Source: a virus
Virus record (IMG/VR): IMGVR_UViG_3300008448_009158
Coordinates: 1 to 22,242 of that record
Length of the DNA: 22,242 nt
Strand: one strand, 5' to 3'
Shown here: piece by piece, positions 3 to 21,276 of the stretch
How positions within the stretch are numbered: the first letter of the stretch is position 1
Layout of the letters: each line of letters opens with the position of its first letter
The notes under the pieces: model-generated
Database searches by the model: none
Told to the model about the DNA's origin: nothing
Seen by the model: the letters and a program-made list of their open reading frames with translations, nothing else
Translations under genes and position numbers: made by a program

Positions 3-815
3 TTTAGTCAGTGGACTCAGAATAATGCGGGCGGTGGGTTTGCTTATACCCGTAGAGAATTAGATCTCACAAGTTTAGCAGAAGGTATTCGTTTTGCTGA
101 CGGTACACGACTAAAATCCGCAGAAGGATTAGGACCTGTCAAACTTCGAAGCCCTGGCAATCGTAGGATCGAAGAAGTCTATGGCTTTAAATCTGTTACA
201 GTGACATCAAAACAGACCACTAGTATAACCGCTACAGCATCACGAAATGCCACAGACGAGTATAGGATTTGGATTGACACTACTACAACCAACATAGACA
301 ATATACTTGGCGATACTTTCGCCGCTGGAATTTGGGAAACCAACACTATAGAGTTTAGTTTAGATAACTCCACATGGTACAGATACGATTTTAATTCTAC
401 TGGTGCTGGCAACGAAATAGGCTACGGGGTTATTATACCCGGCGCAAGTTTAAACTATAGTCAAGGCGACACTATCTACTTTAGATACAAAACTGGCGGC
501 GAACCTGTAGTATGGTGGACTAGAAATGAACTTCCAGGAGGTTCTACAAACTTCCGCGGTGCTGTCATAGACTATCATGCCTATGATACCAATGCTGGAA
601 CAATGATAGGAACTATACATATTGCTAGGGACAGTGGAGATGAATATATCACTCACACTGAAGTATTCAGCGGCGGCAGCAATGGAGAAAATATTGATCT
701 ATGGTATCAGACCACTGAAGGAGAACTCAAATATCGCCGAATAGATGGTAACAGTTCTACACTAAAAGTACAGTGGAGTGCTAAGGTGTTTTACGGTTCA
801 GAATTTTGGGATTAA
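3..815 (+). CDS. Tail fibre/structural protein, 5' end outside window
   Basis: The reading frame is open from the first complete codon at position 3 to TAA at 813-815, giving 270 residues with no start inside the window. The in-frame GTG at 201 is therefore an internal valine rather than a start. The protein is rich in Thr, Ser, Asn, Gly and aromatic residues with little Cys or Lys, as is usual for beta-rich phage fibre proteins. The N-terminal part of the fragment (FADGTRLKSAEGLG near residues 34-47) and the WYRYDF and VVWWTRNE segments look like beta-strand structural modules. It is followed after 15 bases by another fibre gene on the same strand, so it belongs to the tail fibre block. The structural assignment rests on composition and neighbours rather than on a catalytic or named domain. 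Moderately sure. Confidence 0.7.
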   Translation, partial: FSQWTQNNAGGGFAYTRRELDLTSLAEGIRFADGTRLKSAEGLGPVKLRSPGNRRIEEVYGFKSVTVTSKQTTSITATASRNATDEYRIWIDTTTTNIDNILGDTFAAGIWETNTIEFSLDNSTWYRYDFNSTGAGNEIGYGVIIPGASLNYSQGDTIYFRYKTGGEPVVWWTRNELPGGSTNFRGAVIDYHAYDTNAGTMIGTIHIARDSGDEYITHTEVFSGGSNGENIDLWYQTTEGELKYRRIDGNSSTLKVQWSAKVFYGSEFWD

Positions 816-10392: not shown

Positions 10393-10629
10393 ATGCACCC
10401 ACTTCAGATAGATTTATCAAAGATCTCTGATAGCGACTTAGAAGAAAAAATTAGAGATCTTACTAAAAAATACACTACCGTTTTACAGGTAAGTCCTTCA
10501 GCAAGCACTCAACTATTAATGCTCCTAGAAGATTATAAAATTGAAAAAGAATCTAGAGAGCAAAGAAAAATAGAAGCAATGAACAAAGATCTAGGCAAAG
10601 ACCTAGACGATCTAATCAATATTGGTTGA
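10393..10629 (+). CDS. Small conserved helical protein (78 aa)
   Basis: I do not recognise a named family with certainty. The protein is charged and almost entirely helical by composition (SDSDLEEKIRDLTKKY, then MLLEDYKIEKESREQRKIEA), ending in DLDDLINIG. Such small acidic/basic helical proteins with an LSDxDLExKIxDLxxKY opening occur in environmental T4-like phages, but their role is unknown to me. An in-frame TTG at 10387 overlaps the previous stop; the ATG at 10393 is the more likely start. Its 3' end lies directly before a sigma70-type promoter whose -35 box begins within its last codons. Confidence 0.7.
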   Translation: MHPLQIDLSKISDSDLEEKIRDLTKKYTTVLQVSPSASTQLLMLLEDYKIEKESREQRKIEAMNKDLGKDLDDLINIG

Positions 10630-10654
10630 CATCAAACGTAAAATGTAATACAAT
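10626..10654 (+). promoter_or_regulatory. Sigma70-type promoter, leaderless geometry
   Basis: TTGACA at 10626-10631 and TACAAT at 10649-10654 are separated by exactly 17 bases. The -35 is a perfect consensus and the -10 matches five of six. The start codon of the next gene begins at 10661, seven bases after the last base of the -10, where transcription would be expected to start, so the message would have essentially no leader. The -35 hexamer also overlaps the stop codon (TGA 10627-10629) of the preceding gene. It is flanked by a four-base inverted repeat (TTGG/TCAA), too short to act as a terminator. Confidence 0.8.
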
Positions 10655-10660
10655 ACATGT

Positions 10661-11179
10661 ATGCGTGTAAATCAGTATGGTCAAATTATCAGATCTGAAA
10701 AAGAAGTAATCGAAGCCCTTTTTCAAAATCCAAATTTAGATATATCTATAATTGATTTTGACAGCAATAATGTTGTTGAAAAATTCAATAATTCTTCTAA
10801 TGTCTGCGGAATCAATCTTCAAATTAAAAAGAATAAAGAAATAGACATTAGCATTGAAGAGTTTGATAAAAATAATCAACAGCAATGGTTCATACCAGAT
10901 GAATCAAATAACTTTGATATTGAAACATGGTTGTTTGAACAATGCCAAACTGAAAAAGAGTTTTTTAGAGTAAAAGATGAATTAGATTTGTATCAGCAAT
11001 TCAATCTACGACAAATATTGATAATTGCAAAGTATTTGGTTGATACATTTAGAAAAAATCAATTAGTTTGGGGTGTTGGTAGAGGCAGTAGTGTTGCCAG
11101 TTACTGTCTATACCTAATAGGTTTACACAAAATTGATAGTATAAAATATAATTTAGATGTCAGAGAGTTTCTAAAATAA
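10661..11179 (+). CDS. DNA polymerase III alpha-like fragment protein (172 aa)
   Basis: The last third resembles one short part of C-family (DnaE) polymerases. LVWGVGRGSSVASYCLYLIG near residues 136-155, then IDSIKYNLDVREFLK, aligns by eye with the bacterial [33 protein letters not shown] segment. In DnaE the catalytic PDxDxD aspartates follow within about ten residues, but here the protein stops at EFLK just before them. The first two thirds (MRVNQYGQIIRSEKEVIEAL, then QQWFIPDE) do not match DnaE. I recall similar short proteins annotated as Pol III alpha in environmental T4-like phages, so this is probably a conserved family rather than decay. It cannot be a polymerase as it stands; nucleotide or polymerase binding is possible but unproven. 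It has no ribosome binding site and starts at the predicted transcription start. Confidence 0.75.
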   Translation: MRVNQYGQIIRSEKEVIEALFQNPNLDISIIDFDSNNVVEKFNNSSNVCGINLQIKKNKEIDISIEEFDKNNQQQWFIPDESNNFDIETWLFEQCQTEKEFFRVKDELDLYQQFNLRQILIIAKYLVDTFRKNQLVWGVGRGSSVASYCLYLIGLHKIDSIKYNLDVREFLK

Positions 11180-11200
11180 GTATAAGACAAGGAGAATACC

Positions 11201-11503
11201 ATGGCTGAAAGAAAGATTTACAAAACAATGCAGGGAAGAGAAATAGATTTTGATAGTTTAAGACTATCTAATGAACTAGTTCCTGCTGTAGGGAATATGC
11301 GTGTAAACGCTCGAGGCGATGAAATACGTCCCAATGGGGAAATAGTAAGATCAAGAGATGAAATTTCAGAGCAAAAAAATCAAACAGAAATAAAACAAAT
11401 ACAGGAAACTGAATTTAACGAGGACTTTGGACCTGAACCTGAAATTACTCCAGAACAGGCACAAGAAATTTTGTCCAAAAAGAAAAAGCCACAGGAGAAA
11501 TAA
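11201..11503 (+). CDS. Conserved small phage protein, function unknown (100 aa)
   Basis: The N-terminal half has a distinctive conserved-looking pattern: YKTMQGREIDFDSLRLSNEL, then VPAVGNMRVNARGDEI and IVRSRDEI. I recall this pattern in hypothetical proteins of environmental T4-like phages but know of no function. The C-terminal half is low-complexity, acidic, then Lys/Pro-rich (KKKKPQEK), and probably disordered. A good AAGGAGA ribosome binding site (11189-11195) precedes the ATG, and the stop abuts the groES-like start with no gap. No membrane segment or catalytic motif was seen. It may be a virion or assembly factor, since the next gene is a chaperonin cofactor, but this is speculation. 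Confidence 0.75.
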   Translation: MAERKIYKTMQGREIDFDSLRLSNELVPAVGNMRVNARGDEIRPNGEIVRSRDEISEQKNQTEIKQIQETEFNEDFGPEPEITPEQAQEILSKKKKPQEK

Positions 11504-11875
11504 ATGGCAGCAGTTAAAGGCAATTTACGTCCTTTAGGTGACAAAATTTTTGTTACGGACATGAACTTTGGTGAAAGCAAGACTAAGTCTGGCATTGTAC
11601 TAACATCTGATGACGGAAAAAGTAGCGGACTACATCCAAGATGGGCGAGAGTTATTTTTGTAGGTGATGATCAAAAAGATGTCAAACCTGGTCAGTGGGT
11701 GTTGCTTCAGCATGGGCGCTGGACTAGAGCAATAGCTTACGAAATAGAAACAGGTGAAGAAATTAAAATCCATATGGTGGATAATGAAGGACTTCTATTA
11801 GTAAGTGATGAAAAACCAGAAGAAGACGCAATGCGTGTTAGCATTGGTGCAATGAATTTTAACATTCCAGGATAA
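11504..11875 (+). CDS. GroES/gp31-like co-chaperonin
   Basis: This is a ring-forming partner of host GroEL. In T4 the equivalent, gp31, replaces GroES so that the major capsid protein can fold. The opening NLRPLGDKIFV (residues 7-17) matches the GroES start IRPLHDRVIV, and the mobile loop keeps GIVLT at residues 30-34, the part that binds GroEL. A KPGQWVLL strand near 61-68 and a C-terminal GLLLVSDE near 96-103 match the GroES core. The protein is longer than GroES (123 against about 97 residues), with an insertion around HPRWARV and an extra C-terminal tail. The short stretch where GroES has its roof hairpin (GDDQKDVKPG) suggests a reduced roof, as known for gp31. An AGGAGA site precedes the ATG. 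Confidence 0.88.
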   Translation: MAAVKGNLRPLGDKIFVTDMNFGESKTKSGIVLTSDDGKSSGLHPRWARVIFVGDDQKDVKPGQWVLLQHGRWTRAIAYEIETGEEIKIHMVDNEGLLLVSDEKPEEDAMRVSIGAMNFNIPG

Positions 11876-11877
11876 TT

Positions 11878-12249
11878 ATGACAAATCCTTTTAAAGATCA
11901 AGAAAAATTTATGCGGGCCTGTGACCAATCAGTTGAAGGCTTTAATCAAGATCAATTTAAATTATATCTTGATTTAATGGAAGAAGAATGGAAAGAATTG
12001 AAGCTTGCCATTGATAATAATGACAACGTTGAAACCTTAGACGCATTGTTAGATTTTATCGTTGTAACAATTGGTGCTATTCATTCAGCTGGTTTTGAGG
12101 GAGAAGGTGGCTGGAAAGAAGTTATGCGAACTAACTTTGCCAAGATTGATAAAGAAACTGGCAAGGTGCGTAAGCGTGAAGATGGTAAGGTTCTTAAACC
12201 AGTAGGTTGGGCTCCGCCAGATTTACGACCGTTTATCAGTAAGCAATAA
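11878..12249 (+). CDS. MazG-like nucleotide pyrophosphohydrolase
   Basis: This is an all-alpha NTP pyrophosphatase of the MazG/phosphoribosyl-ATP pyrophosphohydrolase-like type, expected to hydrolyse a nucleoside triphosphate to the monophosphate and pyrophosphate using magnesium. The metal-binding pattern is present: EEEWKE at residues 35-40 (E-E-x-x-E) and ETLD at 52-55 (E-x-x-D), with D59 one helical turn on. The C-terminal GKVLKPVGWAPPDLRPF resembles the ending of other phage MazG-like proteins. Phage MazG-type enzymes are proposed to alter nucleotide pools or (p)ppGpp in the host; the substrate here cannot be told. The ATG lies two bases after the groES-like stop, so the genes are probably co-transcribed. 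It is the last gene before a terminator. Confidence 0.85.
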   Translation: MTNPFKDQEKFMRACDQSVEGFNQDQFKLYLDLMEEEWKELKLAIDNNDNVETLDALLDFIVVTIGAIHSAGFEGEGGWKEVMRTNFAKIDKETGKVRKREDGKVLKPVGWAPPDLRPFISKQ

Positions 12250-12255
12250 AATCAT

Positions 12256-12283
12256 AGGGTCTTGACAGGCCCTTTTATTTTCT
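12256..12283 (+). terminator. Rho-independent terminator overlapping a promoter
   Basis: AGGGTC (12256-12261) pairs with GGCCCT (12268-12273) as a six-base stem with one G-U pair; the loop is TTGACA. A T-rich run (TTTTATTTTCT) follows. The stop of the MazG-like gene is only six bases upstream. The short stem makes it a moderate terminator. The loop is at the same time the -35 box of the next promoter. Confidence 0.7.
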
Positions 12284-12290
12284 ATATAAT
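12262..12290 (+). promoter_or_regulatory. Perfect consensus sigma70 promoter inside terminator
   Basis: TTGACA (12262-12267), a 17-base spacer and TATAAT (12285-12290) match the consensus at all 12 positions. The expected start is near 12297, leaving a leader of about 17 bases with AGGAG (12302-12306) seven bases before the ATG at 12314. It should drive the membrane protein, cytidylyltransferase, gp44, ferredoxin and DUF2452 operon by host RNA polymerase early in infection. Confidence 0.9.
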
Positions 12291-12313
12291 AAGGAGAAAA
12301 TAGGAGAGTCTTT

Positions 12314-12697
12314 ATGAATAATAACAGCCTACAAAAAGAAATAGAACTAGCAGAAGATTTAAAAGATAAACTTGATGCGATTGAAGGTAAAAAATCAAAA
12401 CGTACAAGAAAAACTAAAACAGATCAAAAAGTAACAACACCTTACGACAAAATTGTTGATGAAAGTTTCATACCTAAACTTGACAGTACAAAAAAGAAAG
12501 TTGAGGAAATAGAAAAATCATCATTATCAGAAAATGAAAGCAATTATCCAGATCCAGTAAAACATAAACATATTAGTTTTATTAAAAGTGGATTTAGAAT
12601 TTTAGCGGGTGCTACTTTATTTTTTGGTGAATTCGCTATAGCAGGTGTTTTGTTTATTGTTGCTGAATTACTTGGCGTCTATGAAGAAATGGTATGA
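12314..12697 (+). CDS. Small membrane protein, function unknown (127 aa)
   Basis: I do not recognise this family. Residues 1-85 are highly charged and Lys/Glu/Ser-rich (KKSKRTRKTKTDQK near 26-39), probably cytoplasmic and flexible. Residues from about 94 to 120 are hydrophobic (ILAGATLFFGEFAIAGVLFIVAELLGV) and form one helix or a tight hairpin in the membrane. There is no signal peptide, so the C-terminus is membrane-embedded, like a tail-anchored protein. It is the first gene after the perfect promoter, and its stop overlaps the next start (ATGA). It could be an early membrane-modifying or anchoring protein; nothing in the sequence ties it to the replication gene downstream. Confidence 0.7.
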   Translation: MNNNSLQKEIELAEDLKDKLDAIEGKKSKRTRKTKTDQKVTTPYDKIVDESFIPKLDSTKKKVEEIEKSSLSENESNYPDPVKHKHISFIKSGFRILAGATLFFGEFAIAGVLFIVAELLGVYEEMV

Positions 12698-13098
12698 GAA
12701 TAGGGTTTACTTGTAGTACGTTTGACTTGTTTCATGCAGGGCATGTAATGATGCTTGAAGAAGCTAAAAAGCAATGCGAGTTTTTGATCGTGGGATTACA
12801 AAGTGACCCCACAATTGATCGTCCAGGAATTAAAAATAAACCTGTACAAGGACTTTTTGAACGCTGGGCACAGCTAAGAGCTTGTAAATTTGTAGATCAA
12901 ATAGTCCCATACAGTACTGAAAAAGAACTTAGAGATATTTTACTTTCATTTCCTATTAATGTTAGAATATTAGGCGAAGAGTACGCAGGCAAAGAATTCA
13001 CAGGTCATGACATTCCTATGGAATTTTATTTTAATCAACGTAAACACAGTTTTTCAACAAGCGAATTAAGACAACGAGTTATAGAGGCTAATAAATGA
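12694..13098 (+). CDS. TagD-like cytidylyltransferase (134 aa)
   Basis: This is a nucleotidyltransferase of the glycerol-3-phosphate/ethanolamine-phosphate cytidylyltransferase fold, which joins CTP to a phosphorylated alcohol with release of pyrophosphate. Visible signatures are GFTCSTFDLFHAGH (residues 4-17) with the HxGH active-site motif at 14-17, a central IDRPGIKNKPV segment that fits the RxxxKxP region, and HSFSTSELRQR (118-128), matching the S-T-S-x-L-R motif. The length, about 130 residues, is normal for the small GCT/TagD type. In Gram-positive bacteria TagD supplies CDP-glycerol for teichoic acid. In a phage of a Gram-negative host it more likely acts in surface sugar or lipid head-group modification, or on another acceptor; the substrate is unknown. 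It overlaps both neighbours by ATGA and so is translationally coupled to gp44. Confidence 0.85.
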   Translation: MRIGFTCSTFDLFHAGHVMMLEEAKKQCEFLIVGLQSDPTIDRPGIKNKPVQGLFERWAQLRACKFVDQIVPYSTEKELRDILLSFPINVRILGEEYAGKEFTGHDIPMEFYFNQRKHSFSTSELRQRVIEANK

Positions 13099-14015
13099 AA
13101 CAATTATGGGTAGAAAAATATCGTCCAAAAACAGTTGACGGTTATGTTTTTAGAGACGACAACCAGCGTATGCAGGTACAGTCCTGGATCAAACAAGGAA
13201 GTATTCCGCACTTACTTTTAAGTGGTAGTCCAGGTATTGGAAAAACTACTTTGGCAAAACTTCTCCTTAATGAGTTAGAAATTCCAGATTATGATGTATT
13301 AGAGATCAATGCATCACGTGAGCGAGGTATTGGAGAAGTCAGAGATAGAATTACTAATTTTATTAGCATGATGCCATTTGGTCCTTTTAAAGTAGTTCTG
13401 CTAGATGAAGCAGACATGCTGACTCCAGAAGCCCAGGCCGCTATGCGTGGTGTTATGGAAGAATATGCAAGTACCAGTCGATTTATTTTGACCTGTAATC
13501 ATCCTAATCAAATTATACCTGCAATACACAGTCGTTGCCAACAATTTCACTTTGAAAAAATTGATCAAACAGAATTTACTGCTCGTGTAGCAACAATACT
13601 TGTTGAAGAAAATATTGAATTTGATTTAGACACTTTGGACACATACGTTAAAGTAACATATCCAGACTTACGTAAATGTATTAACCTAGTACAACAAAAT
13701 TGTAGAGACAATTCACTAGTAGCACCAAATTCCAGTGATGCAGGGATGCAGGATTGGAAAATTAAAATGGTAGAATTGTTCAAAGCTGGTAAGATACAAG
13801 ACGCACGTAAACTAATTTGTTCAAATGCTCGTCCAGAAGAATTAGGCAGTGTTTATCGTTGGATGTATGACAATTTAGATGTTTTTAGTAAAGAAGATGA
13901 AGTACAAGATCAAGCAGTATTAATCATTAAACAAGGCTTAGTTGATCATACATTAATTGCAGATCCAGAAATTAATCTAAGCGCAACTTTAATTAAATTG
14001 GCTAGACTATCATGA
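13095..14015 (+). CDS. 44: Sliding clamp loader ATPase subunit, gp44-like
   Basis: This is the AAA+ subunit that opens the sliding clamp and loads it at primer ends during phage DNA replication. The order of motifs is complete: [14 protein letters not shown] at residues 5-18, Walker [10 protein letters not shown] at 44-52, Walker [10 protein letters not shown] at 102-110, sensor 1 [10 protein letters not shown] at 121-130, and the SRC arginine-finger motif at 146-148. The length of 306 residues is close to T4 gp44 (319). In T4 gp44 works with gp62 and clamp gp45; neither is found in this window, and the adjoining genes are a cytidylyltransferase and a ferredoxin, not the usual 62 or 45. The start overlaps the previous stop and the stop overlaps the ferredoxin start (both ATGA). 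Confidence 0.93.
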
Positions 14016-14335
14016 CATTTTTAGTTACAGAAAATTGTATTAAATGCAAGTTTACAGACTGCGTTGCAGTTTGTCCAGTTGATTGCTTCCATGAAGGACC
14101 AAATTTCTTAGCTATTAATCCAGACGAATGTATTGACTGCGGAGTGTGTGTACCTGAATGCCCTGCTGATGCGATAGTTGCAGACAATGATGCAACTGTA
14201 GACGTTCCATTTTGGCGTGATTTGAATAAAAAATTAAGTAATCAATGGCCCGTCATAACTAGGAAAAAAGACCCATTGCCTGATGCAGATCAATGGAATG
14301 GGACTCCAAACAAAATAGATTTATTAGAACCATAA
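14012..14335 (+). CDS. fdxA: Seven-iron ferredoxin (FdxA/FdI type)
   Basis: This is a small cytoplasmic electron carrier with one [3Fe-4S] and one [4Fe-4S] cluster. All nine cysteines of Azotobacter vinelandii ferredoxin I have counterparts here: C9, C12, C17, C21, C25, C40, C43, C46 and C50. By that alignment C9, C17 and C50 would hold the 3Fe cluster and C21, C40, C43 and C46 the 4Fe cluster, with C12 and C25 free. The C-terminal extension typical of the FdI family is also present ([17 protein letters not shown]), giving the usual length of 107 residues. It is thus complete, not a remnant. It overlaps gp44 by ATGA and the DUF2452 gene by one base. The redox partner is unknown; a phage or host oxidoreductase is possible. 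Confidence 0.93.
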
Positions 14336-14814
14336 TGAGTAATTCGGCCAAAGGAAAAGATAGTTATGATTCAAAAATAGGGGATACACTTGTCCCCTTT
14401 TTTAATCGCAATGTAACTCCTTATCCTACAGAAGTTGGTGCTCCTAATTTTGATTTAATACCTGTATCTAAACAAAAAGATATAATGATAAATCATGCTA
14501 GGATGTATGCTCAGCAAGAGTATAACAGAATTATGGAACTAGTTACAGTTTTACAAAAACAAGCAGAGTCTATTAAAAGAAGATTAGATGTTACTGATGC
14601 AGTACATGCCGCTGAGTATCAATTTCAAGTGGTAATGGGACAATGCTATTGGCTGGTATGGGATGCTAGAAAAAAGAAAACGTTATTGACTCATAACGGA
14701 CCAAAAGATTGGAGTACAGGTGCTCCTGAAGATTATGTCTATCAAACTCGTGTAAAATATATGGGAGACCACACTTGGTTAGAAGTAGACGAAGAAGGCA
14801 ACGTTAAAGAATAG
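14335..14814 (+). CDS. DUF2452 family protein (159 aa)
   Basis: The protein fits the DUF2452 pattern as I recall it: an N-terminal TPYPTEVGAPNFDLIPV segment (residues 25-41), a long helix with KQKDIMINHARMYAQQEYN, then a helix ending in VTDAVHAAEYQFQVVMGQCY, and a C-terminal small beta domain (YWLVWDARKKKTLLTHNGP, then HTWLEVDEEG). Function of the family is not known to me. The start was put at the ATG overlapping the ferredoxin stop (TAATG), because the 14 upstream in-frame codons lie inside the ferredoxin gene and are not needed for the domain. It is the last gene of the operon; its stop codon sits in the foot of a palindromic terminator shared with the convergent phoH gene. Confidence 0.8.
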   Translation: MSNSAKGKDSYDSKIGDTLVPFFNRNVTPYPTEVGAPNFDLIPVSKQKDIMINHARMYAQQEYNRIMELVTVLQKQAESIKRRLDVTDAVHAAEYQFQVVMGQCYWLVWDARKKKTLLTHNGPKDWSTGAPEDYVYQTRVKYMGDHTWLEVDEEGNVKE

Positions 14815-14837
14815 AAAAGGGGCAATGCCCCTTTTCT
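14813..14837. terminator. Bidirectional terminator between converging genes
   Basis: An 11-base perfect inverted repeat, AGAAAAGGGGC and GCCCCTTTTCT, encloses the three-base loop AAT. Each arm carries four A or T residues at its foot, so the hairpin is followed by a T run on either strand. It overlaps the stop codon of the rightward DUF2452 gene (14812-14814) and the first base of the stop of the leftward phoH gene (14837-14839). Confidence 0.88.
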
Positions 14838-15562
14838 TATAACGTGTCTCCGTAAAGTGCTAGTATTTCTTTTACAGCATCATGCCTTTCGATATCCTTA
14901 ACATTAAATTCAACTAAATCTACGGCTCTATGGGTGTTAGTAGATTTGTATTTTTCAATAAAGTCAACTAGGCCGTTAGCTGTAGGACGGTCGGCTTGTT
15001 GCAGGTCGCCAGTGACCGCCATTTTGCTATTTTCCCCAAGTCTAGTGAGTAACATCTTCATTTGACTTGGCGTTGCGTTTTGCATTTCGTCAGCAATAAT
15101 AAAACTGTTTTTAAAAGTCCTCCCTCTCATATAGGCTAATGGGCTGATCTCCAAGATTCCGTCTTCCATCATTCCCGCAATTTCTTGCGGAGTATAATGT
15201 TCTTCAAAGACATCAAAAATGGGCCTAGTCCATGGAGCCATTTTTTCATTTAACGTTCCAGGTAAGAATCCATGCTCTTCGTCAACACTAACTGCTGGGC
15301 GTGTTATAACTATCTTTTCGACAGTTCCTTCTTGCAATGATTTAATAGCCATTTGCACACCCAATAGAGTTTTGCCCGTTCCCGCAGGACCGATAGCAAA
15401 TACTATATATTTTCGTGGATTTTTGAGCAGTTCTAGGTAAGTTTCCTGCGATAAGTTGCGAGGAACTATATGAACCTGACGTTTTTTGTGCTGAAATTTT
15501 TTAATCTCAATGAGATTGCTGTTTTGTGAACTATTACGTTCACGCTGTTTCGCTCTTGACAA
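14837..15562 (-). CDS. phoH: PhoH-like P-loop ATPase
   Basis: This is a cytoplasmic NTPase of the PhoH family, which carries a superfamily 1 helicase-like P-loop core. Walker A is GPAGTGKT at residues 58-65 and Walker B is FIIADEMQNA at 154-163, followed by TPSQMKMLLTRLG and the MAVTGDLQQAD sensor segment near 180, all typical. The length of 241 residues is normal for phage PhoH proteins, which lack extra RNA-binding or PIN domains. PhoH is widespread in aquatic phages; its role in infection is not settled. The start is a TTG at 15562, chosen because an AAGGAGGT ribosome binding site (15575-15568) lies five bases before it and no better start is near. It is the only leftward gene in the window. 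Confidence 0.92.
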   Translation of the reverse strand: MSRAKQRERNSSQNSNLIEIKKFQHKKRQVHIVPRNLSQETYLELLKNPRKYIVFAIGPAGTGKTLLGVQMAIKSLQEGTVEKIVITRPAVSVDEEHGFLPGTLNEKMAPWTRPIFDVFEEHYTPQEIAGMMEDGILEISPLAYMRGRTFKNSFIIADEMQNATPSQMKMLLTRLGENSKMAVTGDLQQADRPTANGLVDFIEKYKSTNTHRAVDLVEFNVKDIERHDAVKEILALYGDTL

Positions 15563-15591
15563 TGAACACCTCCTTGTAAATCGCGACCTGC

Positions 15592-15604
15592 AATTATATT
15601 TAAG
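15592..15604 (-). promoter_or_regulatory. Possible promoter of phoH
   Basis: Read leftward, CTTAAATATAATT contains both a TATAAT hexamer (15598-15593) and a TAAATA late-type core. No TTGACA-like hexamer lies 16-18 bases upstream; AGGTTT at 15621-15616 is the closest position and a poor match. It is 30-40 bases before the TTG start, a plausible distance. Whether it acts as a sigma70 or a late-type promoter cannot be decided by eye. Confidence 0.4.
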
Positions 15605-15643
15605 GGGGTTGAAAAAAACCTAGCTCATATACCCAAATTTTTT

Positions 15644-15656
15644 GCTAAATATTATC
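15644..15656 (+). promoter_or_regulatory. Possible T4-type late promoter element
   Basis: GCTAAATATTATC matches nine of 13 bases of the T4 late consensus TATAAATACTATT, including six core bases and TAT downstream. It lies 23 bases (from the TAAATA core) before the ATG at 15669, with GAGGA between as ribosome binding site. It is the best of the late-type elements in the window and heads the gene run from 15669 through the lysis region. Confidence 0.5.
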
Positions 15657-15668
15657 GAGGACTAAAAA

Positions 15669-16196
15669 ATGCTAGATATCATTGACGTAATTAAGAATAC
15701 TAAAGAGGTTTATGGGGCAAACAGCAGTATCAGCATCTTGAAAGATTTCGAGAGAGTGCTGGACGAGCTTGATTTGTATGTTTTTGAGAACTGGGAAGAT
15801 GGCGAACTTGTTGAAGGCCCAATTGTCAATAGATATACAGTTGAATGCTCTTTTATGTGGCCACATGATAAAATGCCTAATCCAGACGGCGGTAAGCGTC
15901 TGTTAGATTACGACTGTAAAGTACTTTATAGAAAAGACAAGCTATTGAAACCACGCAAGGTGTTAAGCCCTGATGACTATCGTCCAGGTAGCAAAAAGGG
16001 AAAAATTGACGAACACGCTGTTTGGATAGTAACAATTTTAATGCCTAAAAAGTTAATGCAAGACATTTATCAAGGCTACGTTAAAAAAGAAAATGATAAA
16101 ATGGCAGATGATATGAGAATGCAATCATCCTCCGTTGGAGAAGCAATGCCTGATGCAAATGTAGAACAAAATGCGGAGATACAGCCAAATGCCTGA
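15669..16196 (+). CDS. Conserved phage protein of unknown function (175 aa)
   Basis: I do not recognise a named family. The N-terminal helix (IDVIKNTKEVYGANSSISIL) is followed by a compact region rich in aromatics and charged residues: LYVFENWEDGELVEGPIV near 36-53, CSFMWPHDKMPNPDGG near 60-75, and DDYRPGSKKGKIDEHAVWIV near 101-120. This patchwork of Trp, Pro and Gly motifs looks like a globular, conserved protein. The final 35 residues are low-complexity, Met/Gln/Asn-rich and probably disordered. It overlaps the next gene by eight bases, and a GAGGA ribosome binding site precedes the ATG. A late-type promoter element just upstream suggests a role late in infection, perhaps a virion or assembly protein; that is inference. 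Confidence 0.75.
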   Translation: MLDIIDVIKNTKEVYGANSSISILKDFERVLDELDLYVFENWEDGELVEGPIVNRYTVECSFMWPHDKMPNPDGGKRLLDYDCKVLYRKDKLLKPRKVLSPDDYRPGSKKGKIDEHAVWIVTILMPKKLMQDIYQGYVKKENDKMADDMRMQSSSVGEAMPDANVEQNAEIQPNA

Positions 16197-20115: not shown

Positions 20116-20346
20116 ATGATTAATGATTTGATTACATTATCACAAGACAATGGTCCAATTGGTGAGAGGGCAAGAATTGCTTTACAGTTAACTGAGCAAG
20201 TTAATAGACAAGAAATTAGCGCAGATGAGTATCAAGAATTAATGAGAGACTTGACACGGTTAGATGAAGTTACCGAGCAATCAAGTTCTATTGAAATGAA
20301 AACTATGTTAGTTTCTGCTATCTATGTAGTTGCTCAATTAGCATAA
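20116..20346 (+). CDS. Small conserved helical protein (76 aa)
   Basis: I do not recognise a function. The protein is helical and acidic: DNGPIGERARIALQLTEQVN near residues 11-30, EISADEYQELMRDLTRLDEV near 33-52, and a more hydrophobic final helix (MKTMLVSAIYVVAQLA). That helix is amphipathic rather than clearly membrane-spanning. The ATG directly follows the previous stop, with GGGAG (20104-20108) as ribosome binding site. I recall small proteins with a similar GPSGERARIAYQLT pattern in environmental T4-like phages, also without function. It is the last gene before a terminator. Confidence 0.7.
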   Translation: MINDLITLSQDNGPIGERARIALQLTEQVNRQEISADEYQELMRDLTRLDEVTEQSSSIEMKTMLVSAIYVVAQLA

Positions 20347-20365: not shown

Positions 20366-20396
20366 AAAGGCAGCTTGACAGTTGCCTTTCTTTGTT
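20366..20396 (+). terminator. Rho-independent terminator overlapping a promoter
   Basis: AAAGGCAGC (20366-20374) pairs with GTTGCCTTT (20381-20389) as a nine-base stem with one G-U pair, enclosing the loop TTGACA. A T-rich run (CTTTGTT) follows. The loop is at the same time the -35 box of the dnaJ promoter. It ends the run of genes whose last member stops at 20346. Confidence 0.75.
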
Positions 20397-20403
20397 ATAT
20401 AAT
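20375..20403 (+). promoter_or_regulatory. Perfect consensus sigma70 promoter, leaderless geometry
   Basis: TTGACA (20375-20380), 17 bases, and TATAAT (20398-20403) match the consensus fully. The ATG of dnaJ begins at 20410, seven bases after the -10, where transcription should start. There is no ribosome binding site in the six bases between. The promoter should drive dnaJ, the deformylase and the ClpA-like gene. Confidence 0.9.
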
Positions 20404-20409
20404 AGTGCT

Positions 20410-21276
20410 ATGAAAGATTATTATGGAATATTGGGCGTACCAAAAACAGCAACGCAGGATGATATAAAAAAAGCCTTTAGAAAAATGGCTATGAAACATC
20501 ACCCTGACCGCGGGGGCGACCAAGGTAAATTTAAAGAAATAAACGAAGCTCACGACATATTGAGCGACAATGACAAACGTATGATGGTAGATCAAGGAAT
20601 TGATCCACTCAATCCAAACCAACGACAGGGACAGCATTTCCATAGTAGCGGTAGTCCTTTTGAATTCCATTTTGGTGGTCATCCGCACATGGATGATATT
20701 TTAAGAGGATTTGGATTTAACTTTGGTGGCCCGCAATGGGGTAACCAACCTCCTAGAAAAAATAAATCTCTTAATATTAATCTAAATGTTAGTTTAGAAG
20801 AAGTTTATACAGGGGTTACTAAAGAGTTAGAATTAACTTATCCTGGTAATAACGTAAGGTCTATTAAAATAGAAATCCCTAAAGGTGTAGACAATGGGGT
20901 AACTATCAGATATGAGGGCATGGGTGATAGGTCAAATGCTGGGCTTCCGCCTGGCGATCTTTTAGTAAATATCAATGTCATGCCACATCCTGCATTTGTT
21001 AGAGAAGGAATGAATTTATTAAGAGATGTAATGGTAGATTGTTTTTCAGCAATTACAGGTACAAGTATAGCATTTATCACGTTGGATGGTAGAAGACTTG
21101 AAGTTACTATTCCACCTGGAATACAAGCTGGAACTACCCTTGGATTAAAAAATGAAGGTATGAAAGATAATAAAGGCAATGTAGGAAAACTTTATGTAAG
21201 AGTTAATATACAAATTCCTACACATTTGTCAGCAGAAGTTCTTGATTTAGTTGAGCAAATAAAAAATAAAATTTAA
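20410..21276 (+). CDS. dnaJ: DnaJ-like co-chaperone, zinc-finger-less (288 aa)
   Basis: This is a J-domain protein that would stimulate the ATPase of host DnaK and deliver client proteins. The J domain occupies residues 3-60: DYYGILGVPKTATQDDIKKA, the HPD motif at 31-33, and KFKEINEAHDILSD. A Gly/Phe-rich linker follows (about 74-112), then the beta-rich client-binding C-terminal domains from about 118 on (NINLNVSLEEVYTGVTKEL, then PKGVDNGVTIRYEGMGD). The cysteine-rich zinc finger of type I DnaJ is absent, so this is type II (CbpA/DnaJB-like). The ATG at 20410 was chosen because the J domain begins there and the upstream in-frame TTG (20392) lies inside the promoter. No DnaK gene is seen, so the host's is presumably used. 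Confidence 0.92.
   Translation: MKDYYGILGVPKTATQDDIKKAFRKMAMKHHPDRGGDQGKFKEINEAHDILSDNDKRMMVDQGIDPLNPNQRQGQHFHSSGSPFEFHFGGHPHMDDILRGFGFNFGGPQWGNQPPRKNKSLNINLNVSLEEVYTGVTKELELTYPGNNVRSIKIEIPKGVDNGVTIRYEGMGDRSNAGLPPGDLLVNINVMPHPAFVREGMNLLRDVMVDCFSAITGTSIAFITLDGRRLEVTIPPGIQAGTTLGLKNEGMKDNKGNVGKLYVRVNIQIPTHLSAEVLDLVEQIKNKI

Follow-up and report, generated by a model that had tools for sequence, protein, structure and literature searches.

A predicted transcription terminator and the predicted promoter of the next operon share their bases at two gene junctions of the virus record IMGVR_UViG_3300008448_009158, all 22,242 bases of which are called the window here. At each junction a terminator-like hairpin carries the −35 box TTGACA in its loop, the T-rich tract behind the hairpin runs through the promoter spacer, and a TATAAT −10 box follows. 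We interpret this as a fused, insulated operon boundary selected for terminator and promoter functions, and put the probability of this reading at about 75%. Its geometry, the joint selection of the two signals, pairing at the RNA level, and recurrence before unlike genes are supported by sequence comparison. The fused stop/start signal recurs in several lineages of large phages.

Two embedded promoters in the window

The initial annotation had described the first junction as a six-base loop of exactly TTGACA after a mazG-like gene, with a perfect TATAAT at 17-base spacing, and both features are present (Table 1). It had also taken a T run to fill the spacer. A T-rich tract is indeed there, but the 3′ arm GGCCCT occupies part of the spacer. 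The stem (AGGGTC/GGCCCT) contains one T-G wobble and begins 6 nt past the mazG stop codon. Its predicted RNA fold has 7 pairs and a z-score of about −2.7 to −2.8, and was equalled by 1 of 200 shuffles. Beyond the first gene past this site, gene order continues with tagD-like, clamp loader, and ferredoxin-like genes. The mazG-like gene itself covers residues 535–659 of the 678-residue phrog_671.

The second embedded promoter, at 20366–20403 ahead of a dnaJ-like gene, was absent from the initial annotation. Its hairpin starts 19 nt beyond the stop of a short ORF, has a longer stem than that of site 1, and folds with a z-score near −2.8. Both promoters match the sigma-70 consensus at 12 of 12 positions with a spacer of 17, and both come after the end of a co-directional gene. 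At both, the RNA strand has a GC-rich hairpin with a T-rich tract behind it, as in an intrinsic terminator. The terminal U and A of UUGACA pair in both predicted folds, leaving UGAC as the predicted loop.

Table 1. Features of the two junctions, in window positions
Feature	Position	Strand	Basis
mazG-like gene	11878..12249	+	ORF; phrog_671 nucleotide pyrophosphohydrolase 3e-34; Pfam PRA-PH 4.6e-7
Terminator-like hairpin AGGGTC-TTGACA-GGCCCT, site 1	12256..12273	+	Terminator scan; RNA fold −9.3 kcal/mol
−35 box TTGACA (hairpin loop), site 1	12262..12267	+	Terminator and promoter scans
T-rich tract (terminator tail and promoter spacer), site 1	12273..12284	+	Sequence
−10 box TATAAT, site 1	12285..12290	+	Promoter scan; predicted start near 12297
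Shine-Dalgarno-like AGGAGAG ahead of gene at 12314	12302..12308	+	Sequence
First gene past site 1, family unassigned	12314..12697	+	Pfam, PHROG: no match at 0.001
Short ORF before second hairpin, family unassigned	20116..20346	+	ORF; Pfam, PHROG: no match at 0.001
Terminator-like hairpin AAAGGCAGC-TTGACA-GTTGCCTTT, site 2	20366..20389	+	Terminator scan; RNA fold −12.6 kcal/mol
−35 box TTGACA in loop, site 2	20375..20380	+	Terminator and promoter scans
−10 box TATAAT, site 2	20398..20403	+	Predicted start at A of ATG at 20410
dnaJ-like gene, predicted leaderless	20410..21276	+	Pfam DnaJ_C 4e-39, DnaJ 3e-22; ATG 6 nt past −10

The nearest named relatives of positions 11000–16000 are PA5oct-like Pseudomonas jumbo phages (66–71% identity over 15–22% of the query). 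The label "T4-like" given in the initial annotation is loose in this respect. Several T4-like cyanophages do carry the design.

Register, promoter quality, and occurrence

The window holds 2 perfect promoters of the form TTGACA-15..19-TATAAT, both embedded in hairpins, compared with a mean of 0.10 per shuffled window (100 shuffles). When the flanks of each site were shuffled, a stem of at least 6 pairs arose in 23 of 20,000 trials for site 1 and 41 of 20,000 for site 2. A chance overlap of two common motifs would be helped by the T-rich spacers common in AT-rich genomes, and one of the 100 shuffled windows also contained two perfect promoters. Chance is nonetheless refuted by the register and covariation tests below; the flank shuffles, the dependence on −10 quality, and the context counts speak against it as well, and we regard it as exceedingly improbable.

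The register test used 377 promoters with at most 1 mismatch, and hairpins with T tracts, in 13 genomes or contigs (about 2.2 Mb) that had been reached via homology or motif matches. Thirty hairpins lay in the interval from −40 to +30 nt relative to the −35 box. Sixteen of these were at most 1.5 nt from its center, and any other single offset held at most 2. A reversed-pattern control gave 0 of 147 within 1.5 nt and 4 hairpins 2–3 nt off. The 16 centered sites comprise three picking sites (G019, G021 in L605, and S-RIM4 in L546), six at dnaJ or mazG positions, and seven extra finds (S-RIM4, Sf-CH11, and G021). The T-run rule of this test missed the PA5oct site, which a looser T rule recovers; under the looser rule, with two mismatches allowed in the same 13 genomes, 26 of 1,592 promoters were centered versus 1 of 1,385 in the reversed control.

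Because these genomes had been reached via homology or motif matches, six phages were picked by name only: Syn9, S-PM2, P-SSM2, P-SSM4, ICP1, and T4. Hairpins were centered on 5 of their 796 promoters with at most 2 mismatches versus 0 of 706 controls. Three of the five are convincing, two in P-SSM2 (TTCACA) and one in P-SSM4 (TTTACA). The match in T4 is weak (GTGACA with TATAAA), that in Syn9 has a 6-pair stem, and neither was judged convincing. Scanning promoters with at most 2 mismatches gave no convincing case in T4, ICP1, S-PM2, or Syn9. Two other candidates, P-SSM2 142801 and S-SRM01 157832, were set aside, as the hairpin that holds their TTGACA is larger or displaced. Acinetobacter phages AbTZA1 and Maestro have a CTTCGG-type terminator with no −35 box in the loop, and no −35 box was found in the loop in Escherichia phage EC3-1.

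The hairpins also depended on the quality of the −10 box. In loci and genomes not picked by motif, stems of at least 6 pairs were found on 18 of 162 TTGACA sites with a perfect −10 and on 7 of 2,321 with a worse one (3 of 204, 0 of 346, 3 of 897, and 1 of 874 as the −10 worsened). Leaving out dnaJ sites, the counts were 7 of 162 versus 4 of 2,321. With a perfect −10, hairpins occurred at 17 of 26 TTGACG sites (1 of the 17 not before dnaJ), 1 of 52 TTGACT sites, 0 of 12 TTGACC sites, and 0 of 29 sites of the control hexamers ACAGTT, TAGTCA, and TGACAT.

Contig samples were also fetched by stem pattern, without regard to the −10, the AAAGG/CCTTT pattern favoring one stem type. Among the matches listed, viral contigs held 64 TTGACA hairpins in 114 distinct contexts, with a perfect −10 in 35 of the 64 and one mismatch in 16. 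The TAGTCA control, again among the matches listed, yielded 17 hairpins in 92 contexts (perfect −10 in 0, one mismatch in 1), and the bacterial sample, likewise among the matches listed, 32 hairpins in 114 contexts (perfect −10 in 3, one mismatch in 1).

Further copies were found in the cyanophages Syn1 (TTGACG, ahead of hli03), S-RIM4, Sf-CH11 (one copy with TTGACG, another with a poor −10), and S-CREM1 (poor −10). Another is in PA5oct, near position 186478 and with a spacer of 18; the surrounding 151 bases match 11 records at 98–100% identity, one genome being represented by two of these records. The initial annotation had proposed a search for further sites in this genome and its relatives, and had held that finding none beyond chance would count against it; the design recurs beyond chance. 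It is a minority arrangement, present at 16 of the 377 strong promoters and 0–5 times per genome among the 13 genomes or contigs.

Plain compaction offers a simpler account, in which the overlap arises from costly intergenic DNA and TTGACA makes an easy loop since its ends pair in RNA. The pairing of those ends in both predicted folds agrees with it, as do the short stop-to-start distances at sites 1 and 2 (64 and 63 nt, respectively). These are large genomes, however, in which most strong promoters have no nearby terminator and few terminators are embedded. We consider compaction possible but doubtful as the whole explanation.

Conservation, pairing in RNA, and gene context

The fusion recurs before dnaJ with other stems, in relatives down to about 41% protein identity. 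Among dnaJ loci with upstream DNA it is present in 64 of 76, or 33 of 42 distinct contexts. The nine unfused contexts include three with a hairpin only, two with a promoter only, and four with neither by the rule of the script; the two functions are therefore separable. At the dnaJ position of L148 and L149, inspection by eye revealed a hairpin with a Shine-Dalgarno-like AAGGAGG, no promoter, and a start codon shortly after; these hairpins fall below the stem rule of the context count.

Covariation was assessed in an alignment of 20 of the 22 distinct TTGAC sequences from dnaJ promoters; L083 and L099, with stems in another register, were left out. A nine-pair helix was paired in 95% of cells, and 17 cells had changed on both sides while TTGAC was kept. 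The numbers of paired cells and of cells changed on both sides, and the covariation score, were each reached by 0 of 500 shuffles, and sliding the partner strand broke the helix. Two measures were weak: pairs changed on both sides (5 versus 3.1; reached by 22 of 500 shuffles) and pair types (7 versus 7.1; reached by 383 of 500). Seven of the 20 hairpins lack the innermost pair. Taken with the register peak, the dependence on −10 quality, and the dnaJ count of 33 of 42, the covariation around a constant TTGAC gives good support to the earlier proposal that terminator and promoter are selected together.

Mismatches within the stems indicated which nucleic acid pairs. We counted them in 50 distinct stems from 103 sites, collected by a rule blind to wobbles, with related sites not independent of one another. 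The distinct stems contained 17 G-U mismatches, as read in RNA made in the promoter's own direction, 2 A-C, and 16 others; all 103 sites contained 28 G-U, 6 A-C, and 22 others. Given this excess of G-U over A-C on one strand, pairing therefore appears to be selected in RNA arriving from upstream and not in a DNA operator or cruciform. The data point to an RNA hairpin with a T tract, a terminator by sequence criteria, as the selected structure.

The inverted repeat might otherwise bind a dimeric repressor, or extrude as a cruciform and hide the −35 box. A dyad centered on the −35 box stands in a usual place for an operator, and the initial annotation had suggested extrusion as a link between the two functions. 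The bias in wobbles runs counter to both versions and leaves a link by extrusion unsupported; a link by way of a polymerase that pauses at the site or stays on the DNA is conceivable. Stem sequences also vary between sites and lineages, and the T-rich tract usually lies on the promoter side. Moreover, of 90 sites with at most 1 promoter mismatch, drawn from all viral loci including motif-picked ones, 81 have a same-strand open frame that ends at most 120 nt upstream, a count made without a chance control. An operator or cruciform is thus a very remote prospect.

We also considered the hairpin as part of the downstream mRNA leader and rejected this, as it sits upstream of the predicted start. 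It would therefore be carried only by read-through RNA.

Genes downstream of the 90 sites fell into 31 clusters, the largest being dnaJ with 32, as delimited by an automatic ORF caller that can misassign the frame or overlook short ORFs (upstream cluster 5 seems to be misframed, and in L170 a shorter ORF precedes the chosen one). One small family (MGY.YSYDI etc.) stands behind three different upstream genes, always after a fused site (L605, L614, L193, and L218). In L209 and L259, the gene behind an embedded promoter with TAAAAT is putatively sigma-factor-like by eye.

Behind mazG there are seventeen fused sites, 11 of them in motif-picked loci, and the genes downstream of these sites belong to eight clusters. 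With proteins of the window as landmarks, all 17 have GroES and mazG on the left; in 16, the clamp loader is found 82 to 3,851 bases past the −35 box, the contig of the 17th ending first. Between site and clamp loader are tagD, the gene at 12314, or others, which places variable genes between the GroES-mazG and clamp loader landmarks, as in a moron slot. In the window (12250–13094) and its relatives, the content from mazG to clamp loader ranges from almost nothing to about 3.8 kb.

The idea that the fusion forms a constant socket or slot edge behind mazG was rejected. Loci not picked by motif gave 38 distinct homologue contexts, of which 4 were fused within 120 nt (the L009 site, 129 bases past mazG, is not among them), 12 had a hairpin only, 19 neither, 2 both elements apart, and 1 a promoter only. 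In many of these contexts the next gene begins directly at the mazG stop. Fusion is one among several states of a variable place behind mazG.

Start codons lie close to many embedded promoters. An ATG was found 5–6 nt past the −10 at 44 of the 90 sites; the dnaJ cluster makes up 32 of the 90. Across 103 embedded sites, the next ATG opening a frame of at least 30 codons was at 6 nt in 33 and at 5 nt in 9, in counts that include homologous sites more than once and are dominated by dnaJ. At 790 non-embedded strong promoters, counted with the same redundancy, an ATG stood at 6 nt in 52, at 5 nt in 9, and at 7 nt in 10. The same close ATG extends beyond dnaJ to tagD of L009, L210, L217, and L250 and to clusters 3, 11, 18, and 24. 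If transcription starts at the seventh base past the −10, the A of AUG would be +1, and the peak of ATG at exactly 6 nt lends indirect support to initiation at about that distance. The ATG of site 2 sits at the predicted start; that of site 1 does not, and a Shine-Dalgarno-like sequence is present there. The sharp 6-nt peak at the non-embedded promoters hints that these phages commonly make leaderless mRNA.

Elsewhere in the window, a near-consensus promoter without a hairpin (TTGACA-17-TACAAT, 10626–10661) has its predicted start on the ATG at 10661, which makes the gene there a further one predicted to be leaderless. The 172-aa ORF at 10661–11179 matches positions 20–94 of the 260-position DNA polymerase III alpha NTPase domain and appears as a stand-alone fragment with GVGRGSSVAS.

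Proposed mechanism and known systems

In the fused-boundary reading, polymerase arriving from the upstream gene would transcribe both hairpin arms and the T tract. Release would occur roughly 7–9 nt past the stem, between the −35 and −10 boxes, at about 12280–12282 for site 1 and about 20396 for site 2. The same DNA would act as a consensus sigma-70 promoter whose −35 box is the looped TTGACA and whose spacer holds the T tract, and the next operon would start 15–17 bp beyond the release point. Often the AUG would sit at that start, giving a leaderless mRNA. Because the promoter would be hidden under a polymerase standing at the release point, termination and initiation should exclude each other. 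The downstream operon would bring its own insulation against read-through, a likely benefit, within a boundary of 44 bp from stem to start codon at site 2 and 58 bp at site 1.

Insulation may differ with translation of the upstream gene. An E. coli terminator placed 5–6 nt past a stop codon was almost fully repressed by the ribosome, according to the available portion of one study (PMC4824070). As the stem of site 1 begins at a comparable distance from the mazG stop, insulation may therefore be weak while mazG is translated, with the terminator perhaps acting chiefly on transcripts that ribosomes translate poorly.

Proximity of the two signals might instead be selected for a hand-over, in which the terminating polymerase stays on the DNA, keeps or regains sigma, and starts the next operon. 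Polymerase has been described as mostly staying on DNA after RNA release and reinitiating nearby in vitro, and the authors expect terminator-promoter distance to matter (PMC6978380, as excerpted). Such a process has been proposed as a bacterial adaptation (PMC11347151), and the predicted release point and start lie close together here. The accessible part of that 2024 paper, however, describes diffusion over about 1000 bp, for which exact overlap is not needed, states that an in vivo demonstration is lacking, and expects phages that encode a polymerase of their own (T7, T3, and SP6) to gain little from it. A polymerase bound at the promoter would also block an incoming one, and no result of our analysis demands a hand-over, which we judge unlikely. 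In its strongest form, each site would be a single 35-bp element for termination, promotion, and hand-over that evolved more than once in phages using the host polymerase; the terminating polymerase would already be on the next promoter and would start the often leaderless gene without leaving the DNA. We hold this, too, to be improbable.

The fused sites are ready-made templates for asking whether closeness of terminator and promoter aids polymerase recycling; in the portions available (PMC6978380, PMC11347151), that idea rests on in vitro work. The design also predicts many leaderless phage genes.

Among known systems, the end of the E. coli frd operon overlaps the ampC promoter (PMC6045580, in a passage citing Grundstrom and Jaurin 1982), and operon end and next promoter share DNA there as in the phages. 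As described in that passage, the ampC promoter lies within the last frd gene and the frd terminator is the ampC attenuator. The phage hairpin, in contrast, sits on the −35 box, upstream of the predicted start and outside the downstream transcript, and does not qualify as an attenuator.

Polymerase recycling shares with the phage sites a physical route from a terminator to a close promoter, tested in vitro (PMC6978380, PMC11347151), and terminator-promoter proximity has been argued to be adaptive in bacteria (PMC11347151). The elements are separate there, and the available portions of the two papers describe no fused element.

Phage morons, defined together with the P22 ant moron in the relevant excerpt of PMC2629481, resemble the mazG junction in that site 1 forms the left edge of a mazG-clamp loader stretch of variable length and content and that the genes behind the fusion differ where it is present. 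The fusion, however, is no constant of the place; where it is present, it supplies a predicted promoter from which the genes behind it may be expressed independently.

In T4-like cyanophages, terminators and sigma-70 promoters have been predicted separately (PMC3037559). These are the same kinds of element in the same family, and the Syn1 accession falls within the range listed there; the available text treats the two element types apart and mentions no overlap.

A search of the open-access literature, with most subscription journals outside its scope and its negative outcome correspondingly weak, found no account of a terminator whose loop contains a −35 box. Overlap of terminator and promoter is known from single cases; in these phages it takes a recurrent, register-locked form in several lineages, with two codes superposed base by base.
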